Below, one piece after another: positions 28,854 through 42,168 of a stretch of DNA of 64,000 bases. Positions within the stretch are counted from its first letter, which is position 1, and each line of letters opens with the position of its first letter. The notes beneath the pieces were generated by a model. It saw nothing but the letters and a program-made list of their open reading frames with translations. It did no database searches and was not told the origin of the DNA. This stretch comes from Nesterenkonia sp. LB17 (GTDB lineage Bacteria > Actinomycetota > Actinomycetes > Actinomycetales > Micrococcaceae), in contig NZ_JAJOYX010000004.1 of assembly GCF_022565915.1 (NCBI RefSeq), forward strand, positions 1 to 64,000, in the 5' to 3' direction. Made by a program: the position numbers and the translations under genes.

Positions 28854-29044
28854 TCGTGTCTGGGGGTCGATATGCGGGGTCCGGCGGAGGTCCGCACTGC
28901 GAAGAGGCGGTCTTGGACTTCTGGCTGCCGCTGTGATGTGATGCACAGGAGATGTGGCCCATCACACGTGAGCCGCGTGTCACCACAATCACCTTCACAA
29001 CGGATCGTCGGGCACGTACCTGCCCGTGAAAGGGACATATCACC

Positions 29045-34958: not shown

Positions 34959-35945
34959 TCAGCTCTTGAGAGCCTGGGTGAGCTCATCCGCAGTGGGAGG
35001 CTGGGCGCCGAAGCGGGAGGAGTTGATCGCCGCGGCCCGGGCGGCGGTGCGCAGCACGGTGGCGAGCTGGTCGGTGCTGATCTCGCGCAGCGCTGCCCGC
35101 CGGGAGGCACCGAGCAGGTTCATCCCGCGCAGCGTGGAAAGCGTGGCGGCCATGAAGGAGTCTCCGGCGCCGACCGTGTCAGCGACCTCGATGGAGAAGG
35201 CCTCCTGCTCGGCGAAGCCTGCGCGGGTCAGCCCCATCGCCCCGGACGGTCCTCGGGTGACGATGACCAGGGCGGGACCCAGTTGCAGCCAGGCCTCCAT
35301 GGTCTCGCGGTGGCTGCGCTCGGGGTAGAGCAGATCCAGATCGTCGGTGGAGGCCTGGATGACGTCGGCGCGGGCGATGAACTCCTCGGCCTGCAGGCGG
35401 GCTTCCTCGCGGTTGGGCACCAGAGTGGGGCGGTAGTTCGGGTCATAGGAGATGGTCGCGACCCCCCGCGCCCGGTCCAGCACCCCCTTGACCGTCTCGG
35501 CGCCGGGCTGGAGCATGGCCCCGATCGAACCGGCGTGGAGGTGCTCCAGCGGGCCGGTGTCGTCGCCGTTCTGGGCGGCGGGCTTGGTCTCCCGGGCCAG
35601 GGCACAGAACTTCTCTTCCAGCTCGTCAGCGCTGGGAAGCGTCCAGTCCAGGGTGAATTCGTAGCTGGCCTGTCCGGTGGGGTCCAGGGTGGCGCGCGCC
35701 ACGGAAGTCGGGGAGGCGTCGGCCTCCAGCAGGGCGGTGATGCCCTGGGCGCGCAGACTGCGCGCGATCATCCGTCCATAGTCGTCGTCTCCGCGGCGAC
35801 CGGCGAAGACCACGTCGTGCTCAAGCCGGGCCAGTCCCACCGCGACATTGAACGGCGAACCTCCGACGTGCGCTTTGGGGGCAGATGTCTCCGAATGGAC
35901 GACATCTACCAGGCATTCTCCGATGACCGCCAGGTATGCACTCAC
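34959..35945 (-). CDS. PfkB-family carbohydrate kinase (fructokinase-like)
   Basis: 328 aa. Ribokinase-fold kinase phosphorylating a sugar; closest in style to fructokinases. N-terminal GECLVDVV and GGSPFNVAVGLARLEHDVVFAG (residues about 28-49) form the sugar site; the C-terminal signature DTVGAGDSFMAA contains the catalytic Asp. Start is GTG at 35945 with TAGTTT 6 nt upstream and no Shine-Dalgarno (leaderless). First gene of a three-gene operon. The precise sugar is not determinable. Confidence 0.92.
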   Translation of the reverse strand: MSAYLAVIGECLVDVVHSETSAPKAHVGGSPFNVAVGLARLEHDVVFAGRRGDDDYGRMIARSLRAQGITALLEADASPTSVARATLDPTGQASYEFTLDWTLPSADELEEKFCALARETKPAAQNGDDTGPLEHLHAGSIGAMLQPGAETVKGVLDRARGVATISYDPNYRPTLVPNREEARLQAEEFIARADVIQASTDDLDLLYPERSHRETMEAWLQLGPALVIVTRGPSGAMGLTRAGFAEQEAFSIEVADTVGAGDSFMAATLSTLRGMNLLGASRRAALREISTDQLATVLRTAARAAAINSSRFGAQPPTADELTQALKS

Positions 35946-35951
35946 ACTACT

Positions 35952-35957
35952 AAACTA
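35952..35957 (-). promoter_or_regulatory. -10 box of the PfkB operon
   Basis: TAGTTT on the minus strand, 6 nt before the GTG at 35945; leaderless arrangement. Confidence 0.5.
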
Positions 35958-35973
35958 CCGCACCCAGGAAAGC

Positions 35974-37239
35974 TCAGAGCTGTTTGTAAAGCTCATAGCC
36001 TCCGATGAGGTTGCGCAGCTCCGCCTCCGGGTGGCGCTGGCGCAGGACTTCAAGGGCCTGGCGGGAGCGGACCCCTATCTTGCAATAGAGCACCACCGGC
36101 TTTCCGGTGACGTCATCGAGACCGGAGACCCCGGCGTCGTCGTGCCAGAGATCCCCCAGCGGGATGTTCACCGCGCCTTCGATGGTGCCCATCTGGTGCT
36201 CCCACGGCTCCCGGACATCGACGATGCCGCCGATCGCTCCGGCCTCCAGGAGCTCACGCAACTGTTTGGGGGTCAGCTCATCGTCGAGCTTGGGGTCCCC
36301 GGTGAAGGGATTGAAGTCGAGATCGTCGACGGCGGCCGGCTCGGCTGCCGGTTCCGGTTCAGACTGCCCGGTGGCGGACTCGGTCGCGGGCTCGGTCGCG
36401 GGCGCCGAAGCGTTCGGGGCGGCCGCCGCGGCGGGGGCGTCGGCGCTGAACCCGCCCAGTCCGGCGACATCGGCGCCGATGCTGGTCACCGGCACCCGCT
36501 CGGGATCGGGGTGCAGGCCTATCTCGCGGAAGCTGGCGTTGAGCGCGTCATAGATCAGCACCCGTCCCAACAGGGTCTCACCGATGCCGGTGAGGAACTT
36601 GATGGTCTCGGTGGCCATGATGGATCCGATCACCCCGGGCAGCACCCCGAGCACCCCGGCCTGGGCGCAGGTGGGGACCTCGCCGGCGTCGGGAGCCTCG
36701 GGGTAGAGGTCGCGGTAGGCGGGTCCGTGGCCAGCCCAGAAGAGGCTGACCTGTCCGGCGAAGCGCAGGATCGACCCGGAGACCATCGGCTTGTCGGCGA
36801 TCTCGCAGGCGTCGGCGACCACGTAGCGGGTGGCGAAGTTGTCCGAGCCGTCCACCACGATGTCCGCCTCGGCGATCAGCTCCAGCGCGTTGGCGGCGGT
36901 GATCGGTGCGCGGTGTTCGTGGATGACCACCTCGGGGTGCAGCCCGCGCATCACCGCGGCGGCGGAGGCAGTCTTGGGCTCCCCGATGCTGGACTCGGAG
37001 TGGATCACCTGGCGGTGCAGGTTCGAGCGGTCCACCACATCGTGATCGATCACATCGATGGTGCCCACCCCGGCGGCGGCCAGGTAGGTCAGGATCGGTG
37101 CGCCCAGCCCGCCGGCGCCGATGACCACCACACGGGAGTTCAGCAGCTTCGCCTGAGCCTCGATGCCGAAGCCGTCCAGGGAGAAGTGCCGCTGGAACCG
37201 CTCCATCTGGGAGCGGGAGAACTGGGAAAGATCATTCAT
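35974..37239 (-). CDS. moeZ: MoeZ/ThiF-type adenylyltransferase-sulfurtransferase
   Basis: 421 aa. Adenylates the C-terminal Gly-Gly of ThiS and probably MoaD, then passes sulfur via its rhodanese domain. E1-like domain residues 1-255: ATP loop GAGGLGAP (41-48), HRQVIHSESSIGEPK, SDNFATR, and VPTCAQAGVLG. The C-terminal rhodanese domain (about 320-421) has active Cys in LYCKIGVRSRQ. The two zinc CxxC pairs of E. coli MoeB are absent (YRDLYP and HPDPERVPV instead), as I recall for mycobacterial MoeZ. An Ala/Glu/Pro-rich linker of about 50 residues joins the domains, longer than usual. It follows thiG by 15 bp, so thiamine sulfur transfer is a sure role. Confidence 0.88.
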   Translation of the reverse strand: MNDLSQFSRSQMERFQRHFSLDGFGIEAQAKLLNSRVVVIGAGGLGAPILTYLAAAGVGTIDVIDHDVVDRSNLHRQVIHSESSIGEPKTASAAAVMRGLHPEVVIHEHRAPITAANALELIAEADIVVDGSDNFATRYVVADACEIADKPMVSGSILRFAGQVSLFWAGHGPAYRDLYPEAPDAGEVPTCAQAGVLGVLPGVIGSIMATETIKFLTGIGETLLGRVLIYDALNASFREIGLHPDPERVPVTSIGADVAGLGGFSADAPAAAAAPNASAPATEPATESATGQSEPEPAAEPAAVDDLDFNPFTGDPKLDDELTPKQLRELLEAGAIGGIVDVREPWEHQMGTIEGAVNIPLGDLWHDDAGVSGLDDVTGKPVVLYCKIGVRSRQALEVLRQRHPEAELRNLIGGYELYKQL

Positions 37240-37254
37240 CGTGGGGCAGGTTCC

Positions 37255-38076
<822 letters not shown>

Positions 38077-38316
38077 TCAGCCGCCTTGGACTGCGGTGAC
38101 GATCTCGATGTCTTCGCCACCGGTCAGGGTGGTCGCGGACCAGCGGCTGCGCGGGACGACGGCGGCGTCGAGGGCGACGGCGACGCCGAGTCTTCCGCCG
38201 TCGGCGGGGGTGCCGTCGGGGTTGAGGCTGCGCCCGGTGGTCTGCGCGACGGCGTCCACCACGGTGGCGTCCTCAGGCAGCGTCACGGGTGCTTCATTGA
38301 TGCGGACGGTGAGCAT
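38077..38316 (-). CDS. thiS: Sulfur carrier protein ThiS
   Basis: 79 aa ubiquitin-fold protein ending in Gly-Gly, which is adenylated by the ThiF/MoeZ protein and thiocarboxylated to donate sulfur for thiazole. Shows LTVRINEAPVTLPEDATVVDAV and GVAVALDAAVVPRSRW, then EDIEIVTAVQGG. The start at 38316 puts the first beta strand at the N-terminus; earlier in-frame ATGs at 38331 and 38358 are possible. Second gene of thiO-thiS-thiG-moeZ. Confidence 0.94.
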   Translation of the reverse strand: MLTVRINEAPVTLPEDATVVDAVAQTTGRSLNPDGTPADGGRLGVAVALDAAVVPRSRWSATTLTGGEDIEIVTAVQGG

Positions 38317-38398
38317 GGTTCTCCACGTCATCAGGTGCGGGTGGTCTTGGCACAACACGGCACGGGCCGGGTGTGTTCCTGGTCCGATCCAGGACTCG

Positions 38399-38417
38399 GG
38401 CCCGCGCGGCGCGGGCC
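38399..38417 (-). promoter_or_regulatory. GC-rich hairpin in the thiO-thiS gap
   Basis: GGCCCGCG-CGG-CGCGGGCC, 8-bp stem with a 3-nt loop, 18 nt after the thiO stop and followed by a further CCTGG/CCAGG inverted repeat (about 38378-38393). May attenuate or stabilise between thiO and thiS. Confidence 0.5.
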
Positions 38418-38434
38418 GTGACCAGTCTAGTGAG

Positions 38435-39676
38435 TCAGTCTCGGTGCCGGGTCAGCCGCATGCGGCTAAGCAGCTGCTGATCTTCTGCGCTGAGCTCGGG
38501 TGTGGGGTCCGACCATGCAGATCCCAACAGTGCAGGTTTCACCAGTGCGGCGCCGAGCCGGGCGGCCAGCGGGGCCAGCAGGATGCCGTGGCGGGAGTAG
38601 CCGGTGGAGACCACCAGTCCGGGGCGCAGCTCCCCGAGGAAGGGCCGCTCGTCGGGAGTGCCGGGGCGGGCCCGGGTGGTGATCTCGGTGAGCTCCATGT
38701 CCTTGACCCCGGGCAGCACGGCGACGGCGTCGGTGAGCAGCTCCTGGACGGAGCCGGCGTGGGTGCCGGCCAGGCTGTCTTCGCGGGAGGAGGCTCCGAT
38801 CACCAGTCCCCCGTCGGCGCGCGGGACCAGGTAGACCGAGCGGCCGTTGACCTTGGCCCGGACGGTGGCATCGAGGACGTGGGATTCCCCGCGCATGAGC
38901 TGAGCCGGGTTGACCTGCAGGCGCAGCACATCGCCGTGGATCGGGCGCAGTTCCAGCGGGCAGGTCTCCGGCAGTCCTGCGATCTCGGAGTAGCCGAGTC
39001 CGGGCACCAGCAGCACCGAGTGGAACGGGTGCGCCGCGCCGTCGTCGGTGGTGAGGATGAACCGTTGACCGGGTGCCTCTTGCTCGTCGGGCGCCTCTTC
39101 GACGGAAGTGACCGTGGCGGTGTGCCAGCGGGCGGGAGCTCCGGCTCCGGGGAACTGACGCGGGTCCAGGTCTGCCTCCAGCGCGGCCCGGGTGGCGGCG
39201 ACGAGTTGGCGCGGGTCGATCTGATGATCGCTGGGGACGTCCCAGCCCTTGGAGAGTCCGGGGGCGAGGCCCGGCTCACGACGTCGCAGGGTGGAGCTGG
39301 TCAGCGCGCTGACCTCCATGCCGTGCTCACGCTGGAGAACAGCCAGCTCCGCGACGGCGTCGCGGTCGGAGCGGTCGGCGGCGATGAGCAGCGTGCCGTT
39401 CTCGCGGTACCCGGTGGGCACCGAGGTGGCGCGGGAGAGCGTGGAGAGGAACTGCGGGTACTCGGACCGGGAGGCGGTCATGATCGGCCAGAGATCATCC
39501 TGGCCGTATTGGACCTCGCTGATCGGGGCGAGCATTCCGGCGGCGGCGTAGGAGGCGTCCTGGGCGATGCTCGGGGCGATGACGGTGACGTCATGGCCGG
39601 TCAGACGCAGCTGCCAGGCGGTCAACAGCCCGATCACGCCGGCGCCGATGACTGCGGTGTTCGCCCTGGTGTTCAC
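38435..39676 (-). CDS. thiO: Glycine oxidase ThiO
   Basis: 413 aa. FAD-dependent D-amino-acid-oxidase-family enzyme converting glycine to dehydroglycine (iminoacetate), the glycine-derived donor for thiazole formation by ThiG. FAD loop GAGVIG (residues 11-16), then YAAAGMLAP (typical of ThiO), and the C-terminal VVSTGYSRHGILLAP contacting FAD. The only start compatible with the FAD fold is the GTG at 39676. It lies 2 nt after the 3' end of the tRNA-Gly gene on the same strand, so there is no room for a ribosome-binding site outside the tRNA. First protein gene of thiO-thiS-thiG-moeZ. Confidence 0.93.
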   Translation of the reverse strand: MNTRANTAVIGAGVIGLLTAWQLRLTGHDVTVIAPSIAQDASYAAAGMLAPISEVQYGQDDLWPIMTASRSEYPQFLSTLSRATSVPTGYRENGTLLIAADRSDRDAVAELAVLQREHGMEVSALTSSTLRRREPGLAPGLSKGWDVPSDHQIDPRQLVAATRAALEADLDPRQFPGAGAPARWHTATVTSVEEAPDEQEAPGQRFILTTDDGAAHPFHSVLLVPGLGYSEIAGLPETCPLELRPIHGDVLRLQVNPAQLMRGESHVLDATVRAKVNGRSVYLVPRADGGLVIGASSREDSLAGTHAGSVQELLTDAVAVLPGVKDMELTEITTRARPGTPDERPFLGELRPGLVVSTGYSRHGILLAPLAARLGAALVKPALLGSAWSDPTPELSAEDQQLLSRMRLTRHRD

Positions 39677-39678
39677 AG

Positions 39679-39749
39679 AGCGGGCGACGGGAATCGAACC
39701 CGCGTCGTCTGCTTGGGAAGCAGAAGCTTTGCCATTAAGCTACGCCCGC
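39679..39749 (-). tRNA. tRNA-Gly (anticodon CCC)
   Basis: 71 nt. Acceptor stem GCGGGCG/CGCCCGC with discriminator U, D-arm around GCTTAATGGCAAAGC, anticodon arm TCTGC-TTCCCAA-GCAGA (anticodon CCC), 4-nt variable loop and T-arm GCGGG-TTCGATT-CCCGT. The CCA end is not encoded. Transcribed toward thiO, whose GTG start follows after only 2 nt. Confidence 0.95.
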
Positions 39750-39951
39750 ATTCTGGCCTGGTGAAGCCAGGCTTCGAGATTACCAGGTGCACCGGGGTCA
39801 CGCGCGCCGCCCCCGAGCCACACCCGTTGCTCAGATGAGGAAGAGGCGGGATGGAGCGGCGGAGGGAAGAACCTCTAAGCCTTCGGCGTTGGTGTTGATA
39901 GTGCCGCAACCGGCATCTTCAAGCGCACACCGACGAGCACGAGGAGCCCCC

Positions 39952-41439: not shown

Positions 41440-42168
41440 ATGGATGAGACTGAGACCATGGCACACACCCCACACCCCTCCCACCTGGGCCATCTGCGCC
41501 GGGATCGCCTGGTCTCGGCCAGGCTCTACGTCTGCACCGACCTCCAGCGATTCATCACCCGGCCCGAGGCGGGGCCGGTGGATGAGCTGGACTTCGACGC
41601 GCTGTACGACTTCTTCGTCGCGGCCTACACCGGAGGTGTGGACATCATCCAGATCCGGGACAAGGGTGTCGCGGTGCAGACGGAGATCGCCGCGCTGACC
41701 CTGCTGCGCCAGGTCGCCAATGAGCACGGCGGACTCTCGGCCGCGAACGATCGGGCCGACGTCGCGGCGATCACCGGGGTCGACGTCTTCCACGTCGGCC
41801 AGGACGACCTGACCACTGAAGAGGCCCGGATGATCTTGGGCGACGACGTCGTCATCGGCCGGTCCTGCCAGACCTGGGAGCAGGTGCGTGAAGCTGACTC
41901 CGACATCGGCCTGGACTACTACTGCACCGGTCCGATCTGGGAGACCCCGACCAAACCGGACCGCGCCGCTGTCGGACTGGAGCTGGCGGCACAGGCGGCG
42001 AGCCTGGAGAGCTCGAAGGTCTTCTTCGCCATCGGCGGGATCAATGAGGCCAACATCGGCGAGGTCACCGCGGCCGGCGCCGACCGCGTGGTGGTTGTCC
42101 GCGCCGTGACCCAGGCTTCGGACCCGGCCGCGAGCGCCCGGGCGCTGCGCGAGCAGCTGCCCGCTTAG
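41440..42168 (+). CDS. thiE: Thiamine-phosphate synthase
   Basis: 242 aa. Joins HMP-pyrophosphate and thiazole phosphate to thiamine phosphate. TIM barrel with LYVCTD (residues about 28-33), IIQIRDKGV, the pyrophosphate-binding ANDRADVAAITGVDVFHVGQDDL, GRSCQTWEQ and the thiazole-phosphate loop FFAIGGINEANI. The ~27-residue N-terminal extension is kept because a -10 box sits 6 nt before the ATG. It is not in the thiO-thiS-thiG-moeZ unit. Its last 104 bp overlap the opposite-strand LysR-domain gene. Confidence 0.94.
   Translation: MDETETMAHTPHPSHLGHLRRDRLVSARLYVCTDLQRFITRPEAGPVDELDFDALYDFFVAAYTGGVDIIQIRDKGVAVQTEIAALTLLRQVANEHGGLSAANDRADVAAITGVDVFHVGQDDLTTEEARMILGDDVVIGRSCQTWEQVREADSDIGLDYYCTGPIWETPTKPDRAAVGLELAAQAASLESSKVFFAIGGINEANIGEVTAAGADRVVVVRAVTQASDPAASARALREQLPA

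Follow-up and report, generated by a model that had tools for sequence, protein, structure and literature searches.

A glycine tRNA gene two nucleotides ahead of thiO in Nesterenkonia: a candidate case of bacterial mRNA 5' ends formed by tRNA maturation

We analysed a stretch of 64,000 nt from Nesterenkonia sp. LB17 (the window, which is contig G000:C5, G000 being our label for its genome). On the minus strand, a complete tRNA-Gly(CCC) gene is followed almost immediately by thiO, encoding glycine oxidase, and then by thiS, thiG and a moeZ/thiF-like gene (Table 1). Rfam ends the complete 71-nt tRNA at 39679, and ARAGORN ends it one base further, at 39678. The discriminator is the U at 39679; CTG comes next, and hence CCA is not encoded. 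The thiO product passes the equivalog test for ThiO (TIGR02352, 280 bits against a cut-off of 250.8). In the thiO frame, a TAG lies within the tRNA 5' of the GTG at 39676, with no ATG, GTG or TTG codon between, and the next such codon 3' of the GTG falls within the GxGxxG motif, indicating that this GTG is the sole usable start. The initial annotation had placed the tRNA end and the GTG at these positions on one strand, with no encoded CCA and no ribosome-binding site outside the tRNA. All of this holds: coordinates, Rfam match, open reading frame and upstream TAG agree, and no Shine-Dalgarno (SD)-like string or TANNNT box was found in the 22 nt 5' of the GTG in the window. Nor was a terminator-like site found in 35900-39800 or, on the minus strand, in 38300-39749. 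Our searches for SD, -10 and sigma-70 signals test for simple consensus patterns, and actinobacterial promoters vary; the sigma-70 scan reports nothing in the region and carries no weight, since it is silent even for the promoter of tRNA-Gly(CCC). When the bare junction is folded, a possible hairpin (39662-39682, minus strand) pairs the tRNA end and spacer (CGCUCUG) with thiO codons 4-6 (CAGGGCG), and could compete with the acceptor stem.

Table 1. Features of the tRNA-Gly/thiO locus, the second tRNA-headed gene, and the islands that part tRNA and thiO in two genomes. Positions without a contig label refer to the window.
Feature	Position	Strand	Evidence or remark
Putative -10 box TAATCT (TANNNT) of the tRNA-thiO transcript	39777..39782	-	in block CACCTGGTAATCTCG
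Hairpin in predicted pre-tRNA 5' leader	39756..39772	-	fold; leader sequences
tRNA-Gly(CCC), 71 nt up to discriminator U	39679..39749	-	RF00005, 70.5 bits; CCA not encoded
2-nt spacer CT	39677..39678	-	C is position 74 (first C of CCA)
thiO, glycine oxidase	38435..39676	-	GTG start 39676-39674; TIGR02352, PF01266 DAO
thiS, sulfur carrier	38077..38316	-	TIGR01683, PF02597
thiG, thiazole synthase	37255..38064	-	PF05690, 320 bits
moeZ/thiF-like adenylyltransferase with rhodanese domain	35974..37239	-	PF00899, PF00581
tRNA-Arg(TCT), C, TTG-DUF2079	G000:C3:520765-520837 (L150, L152)		second tRNA-headed gene
Island between tRNA-Gly(CCC) and thiO	G009:C1:1800577-1847613		47 kb
Island between tRNA-Gly(CCC) and thiO	about G024:C1:1692458-1765970		73 kb

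On the 5' side of the tRNA, the TAATCT box is the putative promoter element of a tRNA-thiO transcript. The sigma-70 scan does not report it; the block around it, CACCTGGTAA(T/C)CTCG, is present in 9/9 genomes of the clade. The hairpin in the leader would be expected to be removed by RNase P. In other genomes, the sequence between a TACACT-like box and tRNA-Gly(CCC) includes ~45 nt that are strongly conserved (core near CACGGTGGGATCACTCGCACTCAT); this stretch is carried by G002, G003, G006, G014, G015, G016, G017, G021 and G025, is more diverged in G027, and had no Rfam match in the loci scanned.

Downstream of thiO, thiS has a GGAG, and thiG and moeZ, which start 12-15 nt after the preceding gene, have no well-placed SD by the test applied to thiO, making the missing SD at thiO less telling. 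The 118-nt gap between thiO and thiS (38317-38434, minus strand) has a strong predicted fold (-51 kcal/mol, z -2.45); this fold and the thiS GGAG suggest that thiSG-moeZ may be governed apart from thiO. No TPP riboswitch (THI element) was detected in the window, and hence none before thiO. The single one found in G000 (C1:88966-89112) precedes a PF09819 permease, which we take to be YkoE-like, followed by an ECF-type ATPase in a transporter operon. Such a set-up would suit import of the pyrimidine half combined with the cell's own synthesis of the thiazole half. A proteomic study of Nesterenkonia sp. Act20 reports that HMP is taken up through YkoCDE and that the thiazole is made with ThiO and ThiG (PMC8965627). 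Elsewhere in the genus, a TPP riboswitch does stand before thiO, scoring above the curated cut-off in G001, G022 and G029 and below it in G013. The window also holds thiE (41440-42168, plus strand), ~1.7 kb past the tRNA on the opposite strand, and an msiK RNA element (28984-29040, plus strand; RF01747, 62.3 bits).

We compared the junction across 30 Nesterenkonia genomes, in 24 of which thiO and tRNA-Gly(CCC) share a contig (the two are on different contigs in G007, G014 and G018, G028 is a fragment, and G008 and G010 have no clear thiO). The tRNA lies upstream of thiO on the same strand in all 24, at an interval of between 2 nt and 73 kb. Six of them, including the window, have exactly tRNA-CT-GTG (G000, G004, G019, G020, G023 and G026). 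A seventh tight genome, G006, has tRNA-CA-GTGATG ahead of a distant ThiO (61.5% identity to G000). The interval is about 90-100 nt in G015, where thiO carries a stop, and in G016. Across its 71 nt, tRNA-Gly is identical in the six exact-junction genomes and G006. Pairwise omega of thiO among the six is 0.16-0.28 (15 pairs); the gene is under purifying selection in tight genomes. While 137/203 four-fold sites of thiO vary among the six genomes, the C, the T and the GTG are invariant; invariance of both spacer bases at the four-fold rate has a chance probability of about 0.11, and the weight therefore rests on the recurrence of the junction and not on the spacer bases.

Outside the genus the arrangement was not seen. 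In a family set of 197 genomes, 43 had matches to both the tRNA and thiO, on different contigs and thus uninformative in 27; all 16 same-contig pairs from other Micrococcaceae genera are >200 kb apart. These tRNA matches were counted without an anticodon check, and 129/197 genomes had no tRNA match at the threshold used. Among 19 thiO loci taken from other genera, no tRNA-Gly lies within the 1.5 kb retrieved, and a tRNA-Arg lies about 1 kb away in six. The tight tRNA-Gly/thiO arrangement thus appears confined to part of one genus; the adjacency, whose absence from related genomes the initial annotation had named as a refutation, is conserved within Nesterenkonia and was not seen beyond it.

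Start signals differ between tight and other thiO genes. We compared 29 start contexts (27 from the genus and two others), seven of them tight and 22 not. Neither an SD nor a TANNNT precedes thiO in any of the seven tight genomes; a TANNNT box 5-10 nt ahead of the start codon, as expected of a leaderless gene driven by a promoter of its own, occurs in 0/7. An ATG or GTG start without an SD, which is the criterion of an actinobacterial leaderless gene, is what tight thiO genes have. Nine of the 22 non-tight rows have an SD (G001, G009, G012, G013, G022, G024, G029 and the outgroups G142 and G214). Seven have a TANNNT 6-8 nt 5' of an ATG (G002, G003, G007, G014, G017, G018 and G027; G007 and G018 have GAGG besides), which is the layout of a leaderless promoter; an eighth TANNNT, at a doubtful far-upstream start in G021, was left out of this count. 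The remaining six starts have neither signal or are ambiguous (G005, G011, G015, G016, G021 and G025).

The tRNA-Gly site is also an insertion point for islands, and the clade members in which tRNA and thiO have been parted are instructive. In G009, 47 kb separate the intact upstream tRNA from thiO, to which a tRNA-Gly(CCC) 3' half (positions 33-71) is still fused. In G024 the interval is 73 kb; the 3' half adjoining thiO is eroded, and another 3' fragment (27-71), some 3 kb upstream of thiO, is perfect. The far end of the interval thus repeats the tRNA 3' half directly in G009 and G024, and no such repeat was seen in G012; repeats of this kind are the usual trace of integrative islands that insert at tRNA genes. 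No tyrosine integrase (PF00589) was found inside either the G009 or the G024 interval. Because the stranded tRNA half is fused to thiO, thiO must have adjoined the tRNA before these two islands arrived. The stranded half is now preceded in both genomes by AGGAG-4-ATG, with the frame open through the remnant into thiO, and the former thiO GTG of G024 is now GGG. G012 has 2.8 kb between tRNA and thiO, no stranded half, and AGGAG before the thiO GTG. An SD at thiO is therefore present in 3/3 parted clade members (G009, G012 and G024), compared with 0/6 tight members. In G009 a terminator-like site, consisting of a 13-pair stem and a T run, now follows the intact tRNA; the scan found none after the G012 tRNA. 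Tight and island rows are mixed in the ThiO tree, and the pairing of G026 with G009 is weak (82/51), such that the tree alone does not settle which state is older.

Of the 47 tRNA genes found in G000, one other, tRNA-Arg(TCT), has in our judgement a real coding frame directly behind it. Junctions at the His, Leu-TAA, Cys and Ser-TGA tRNAs were rejected as chance, antisense to other frames, or not tight, on the grounds of GC-by-position, terminator-like sequence and inspection by eye; the Val-TAC junction was judged in the same way, with less certainty. Behind tRNA-Arg(TCT) and a single C, a TTG opens a 485-codon frame with a coding GC pattern, encoding a DUF2079 membrane protein (identified on the G004 copy). 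This arrangement is present at 13 of the 28 tRNA-Arg(TCT) loci retrieved from the 30 genus genomes (G000, G001, G004, G009, G012, G013, G019, G020, G022, G023, G024, G026 and G029; the G001 frame is open for 260 codons only). An mshA-like gene instead starts 1 nt after the tRNA in G003 (C-ATG; L167) and G021 (C-GTG; L177), the two open reading frames scoring 322 and 317 bits with TIGR03449, below the cut-off of 462.5; the mshA-like gene of G006 lies about 50 nt after the tRNA and has an SD. In G016 and G025, an SD precedes the corresponding TTG of DUF2079, indicating that the TTG is the true start. Omega for DUF2079 is 0.079-0.389 (66 pairs from 12 genomes; G001 left out). No tight junction was seen by eye at tRNA-Arg loci of other genera (28 loci, 26 parsed); 14 of the 26 have a terminator-like hairpin by the same inspection, a few have an SD-led frame, and G044 has an open frame with a TTG three bases past the tRNA. 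A start codon thus appears to lie directly behind a tRNA in this genus at two tRNAs and in three genes, and its recurrence at a second tRNA suggests a general layout and not a tie of vitamin B1 to glycine.

The reading we favour is that tRNA and mRNA are made as one transcript and that a cut at the 3' end of the tRNA would leave an mRNA with a leader of 1-2 nt. RNA polymerase would start at the promoter of tRNA-Gly(CCC) and pass through the tRNA into thiO, there being no terminator found between them, and probably on into thiS-thiG-moeZ. An endonuclease would mature the tRNA 3' end, perhaps between C74 (39678) and U (39677). The cut would free tRNA-Gly for CA addition and would, at the same time, yield an mRNA beginning 5'-U-GUG, or 5'-CU-GUG if made at the discriminator, which actinobacterial ribosomes could start as a leaderless or near-leaderless message. 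We infer co-transcription, the cut position and translation from sequence. Support comes from the exact junction in 6/24 genomes, the missing SD, -10 and terminator signals, the purifying selection and the recurrence at tRNA-Arg, and equally from the parted genomes, in which thiO has an SD start (G009, G024 and G012) and a separated tRNA has its own terminator-like site (G009). No such mRNA would form if tRNA 3' ends were made only by exonucleases.

The initial annotation had proposed a joint transcript of this kind, with RNase Z as the nuclease and a 2-nt leader on the thiO mRNA. The joint transcript and near-leaderless mRNA gain from the anatomy and the comparison, whereas the nuclease is not supported and the leader that we prefer is 1 nt. 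Canonical RNase Z (TIGR02651) scores above its cut-off in 0/30 genus genomes, compared with 9/14 control genomes, and we reject RNase Z in its canonical form on this ground. The best match in G000 (49 bits against 293) is an MBL-fold hydrolase whose nearest PDB entry is 6kns (277 residues used) and which resembles RNase Z only distantly.

As to the position of the cut, a C directly follows the discriminator (C74) in 47/47 G000 tRNA genes, 34 without CCA and 13 with the full CCA; the +2 position is C in only 23/47. C74 is present too in the 25 tRNA-Gly(CCC) genes that we read across the genus, as it is at the 28 tRNA-Arg loci. RNase P reads the CCA region, and C74 could be retained for RNase P, so its conservation is not proof of the cut site. 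Cuts between the Cs are known from other actinobacteria. The available text on P. acnes, reported as lacking an obvious tRNase Z, describes such cuts within the encoded CCA for some tRNAs, e.g. tRNA-Gly(CCC), and cuts a few nucleotides downstream for other CCA-encoding tRNAs (PMC3848588). In S. coelicolor, according to the portion of the report available, the between-Cs cut was mapped for most of 12 CCA-encoding tRNAs, and several tRNAs without CCA are cut a few nucleotides 3' of the tRNA (PMC4681348). The between-Cs cut is thus reported for CCA-encoding tRNAs, which the tRNA-Gly(CCC) of the window is not. From the universal C74 and the between-Cs cuts, our guess is a cut after C74, between C 39678 and U 39677. 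The predicted mRNA 5' end is then 39677, or 39678 for a cut after the discriminator; with a cut after C74 the DUF2079 and mshA-like mRNAs would begin exactly at the start codon, and thiO would begin with U-GUG. The downstream cuts count against this position, because such a cut here would hit the thiO start codon, and they led us to lower the probability that we give the joint-transcript reading slightly, from 0.62 to 0.58.

Translation of the predicted messages would be close to cases already described. Mycobacterial tests of leaderless mRNAs placed the start codon at +1 and not 1-2 nt in, and leaderless TTG did poorly (PMC4633059), which makes the DUF2079 case weaker. For P. acnes, 50 annotated start codons are reported to overlap a transcription start, and a further 88 to be no more than 10 nt away from one, with 29% GUG and 3% UUG among leaderless starts (PMC3848588); by this usage thiO and the mshA-like gene fit well and DUF2079 less so.

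One alternative retains the joint transcript but has thiO translated weakly from uncut or randomly cut RNA, the junction being a neutral deletion scar that is tolerated because little ThiO is needed. The junction coincides with the island insertion point, so that indels there are frequent, the interval in the genus ranges as widely as stated above, and the available excerpts on other actinobacteria document cuts a few nucleotides downstream. We nevertheless consider such a scar unlikely, given that thiO is constrained, that six genomes keep the junction, and that the same type of junction is found at tRNA-Arg with two unrelated genes. A second alternative, a cryptic promoter inside the tRNA that drives thiO independently of tRNA maturation and gives the mRNA a tRNA fragment as its leader, seems to us distinctly improbable. 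The scan is too insensitive to exclude such a promoter, and TAGCTT in the D-arm fits TANNNT; however, TAGCTT there is part of the ordinary tRNA sequence, and a start at that place would leave a tRNA leader of about 50 nt whose final 22 nt contain no SD.

That the supply or charging of tRNA-Gly tunes ThiO, which consumes glycine, is very improbable. It is in line with the gene pairing only, and a functional link between glycine and thiamine, suggested in the initial annotation, is disfavoured by the restriction of the arrangement to part of one genus, by the 16/16 unlinked same-contig pairs in other genera, and by tRNA-Arg, which has the same anatomy with DUF2079 and mshA-like genes that are untied to arginine. 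Given the tRNA-Arg cases and the distant pairs, we reject glycine-thiamine coupling as the driver of the arrangement. Least probable of all is an ordinary operon with an unrecognised start site or promoter, for which the simplicity of our consensus tests, the variability of actinobacterial promoters and the lack of a clear SD at other genes of the thiO operon can be cited, but to which a 2-nt spacer, the only non-tRNA sequence available, and a tRNA-Gly invariant in seven tight genomes leave little room for a dedicated signal.

Several known systems resemble the joint-transcript reading in part. In mitochondrial tRNA punctuation, an mRNA begins right after a tRNA with little or no leader, the usual nuclease being RNase Z/ELAC2. 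The Nesterenkonia junctions are similar in their gaps (2 nt at thiO and 1 nt at the tRNA-Arg genes) and in that the mRNA would owe its 5' end to cleavage behind the tRNA; they differ in lying on a bacterial chromosome, in involving few genes and a local promoter, and in that RNase Z/ELAC2 was not found in canonical form. E. coli thrT-tufB is a tRNA-mRNA co-transcript whose mRNA carries a leader and a ribosome site of its own. There, as proposed for Nesterenkonia, a tRNA and a protein gene share one promoter, but the gap in Nesterenkonia is 1-2 nt where tufB has its own leader. Actinobacterial leaderless mRNAs likewise lack an SD and have their GUG or AUG start at the very 5' end or close to it (PMC4633059, PMC3848588); theirs begin at the transcription start, whereas the 5' end of thiO would come from processing. 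The leaderless mRNAs made by MazF in E. coli do arise by cleavage, as the accessible text has it (PMC3848588), but as a toxin stress response and not through routine tRNA maturation. tRNA punctuation and leaderless mRNAs are each known. For the two combined on a bacterial chromosome, with junctions gained and lost, we found no precedent: no report of such tRNA/start-codon junctions in bacteria turned up in the open-access literature, represented mostly by titles and the opening lines of abstracts.

More broadly, it is possible, at somewhat less than even odds, that Nesterenkonia repeatedly makes tRNA genes the heads of operons, with the start codon brought to tRNA position 75/76 through spacer loss and maturation making leaderless mRNAs of thiO, DUF2079 and the mshA-like gene. 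If true, this would be a still-evolving bacterial counterpart of mitochondrial punctuation in which tRNA output and end-processing set the levels of metabolic enzymes, and thiazole synthesis would have moved from TPP-riboswitch control to tRNA control. A gene placed right behind C74 would serve as a reporter for finding the tRNA 3' endonuclease of Nesterenkonia-type bacteria. If confirmed, the finding would mean that, in a free-living bacterium, tRNA maturation generates mRNA 5' ends fit for translation, tying tRNA processing to the expression of metabolic genes and providing a living model of how mitochondrial punctuation could have arisen.
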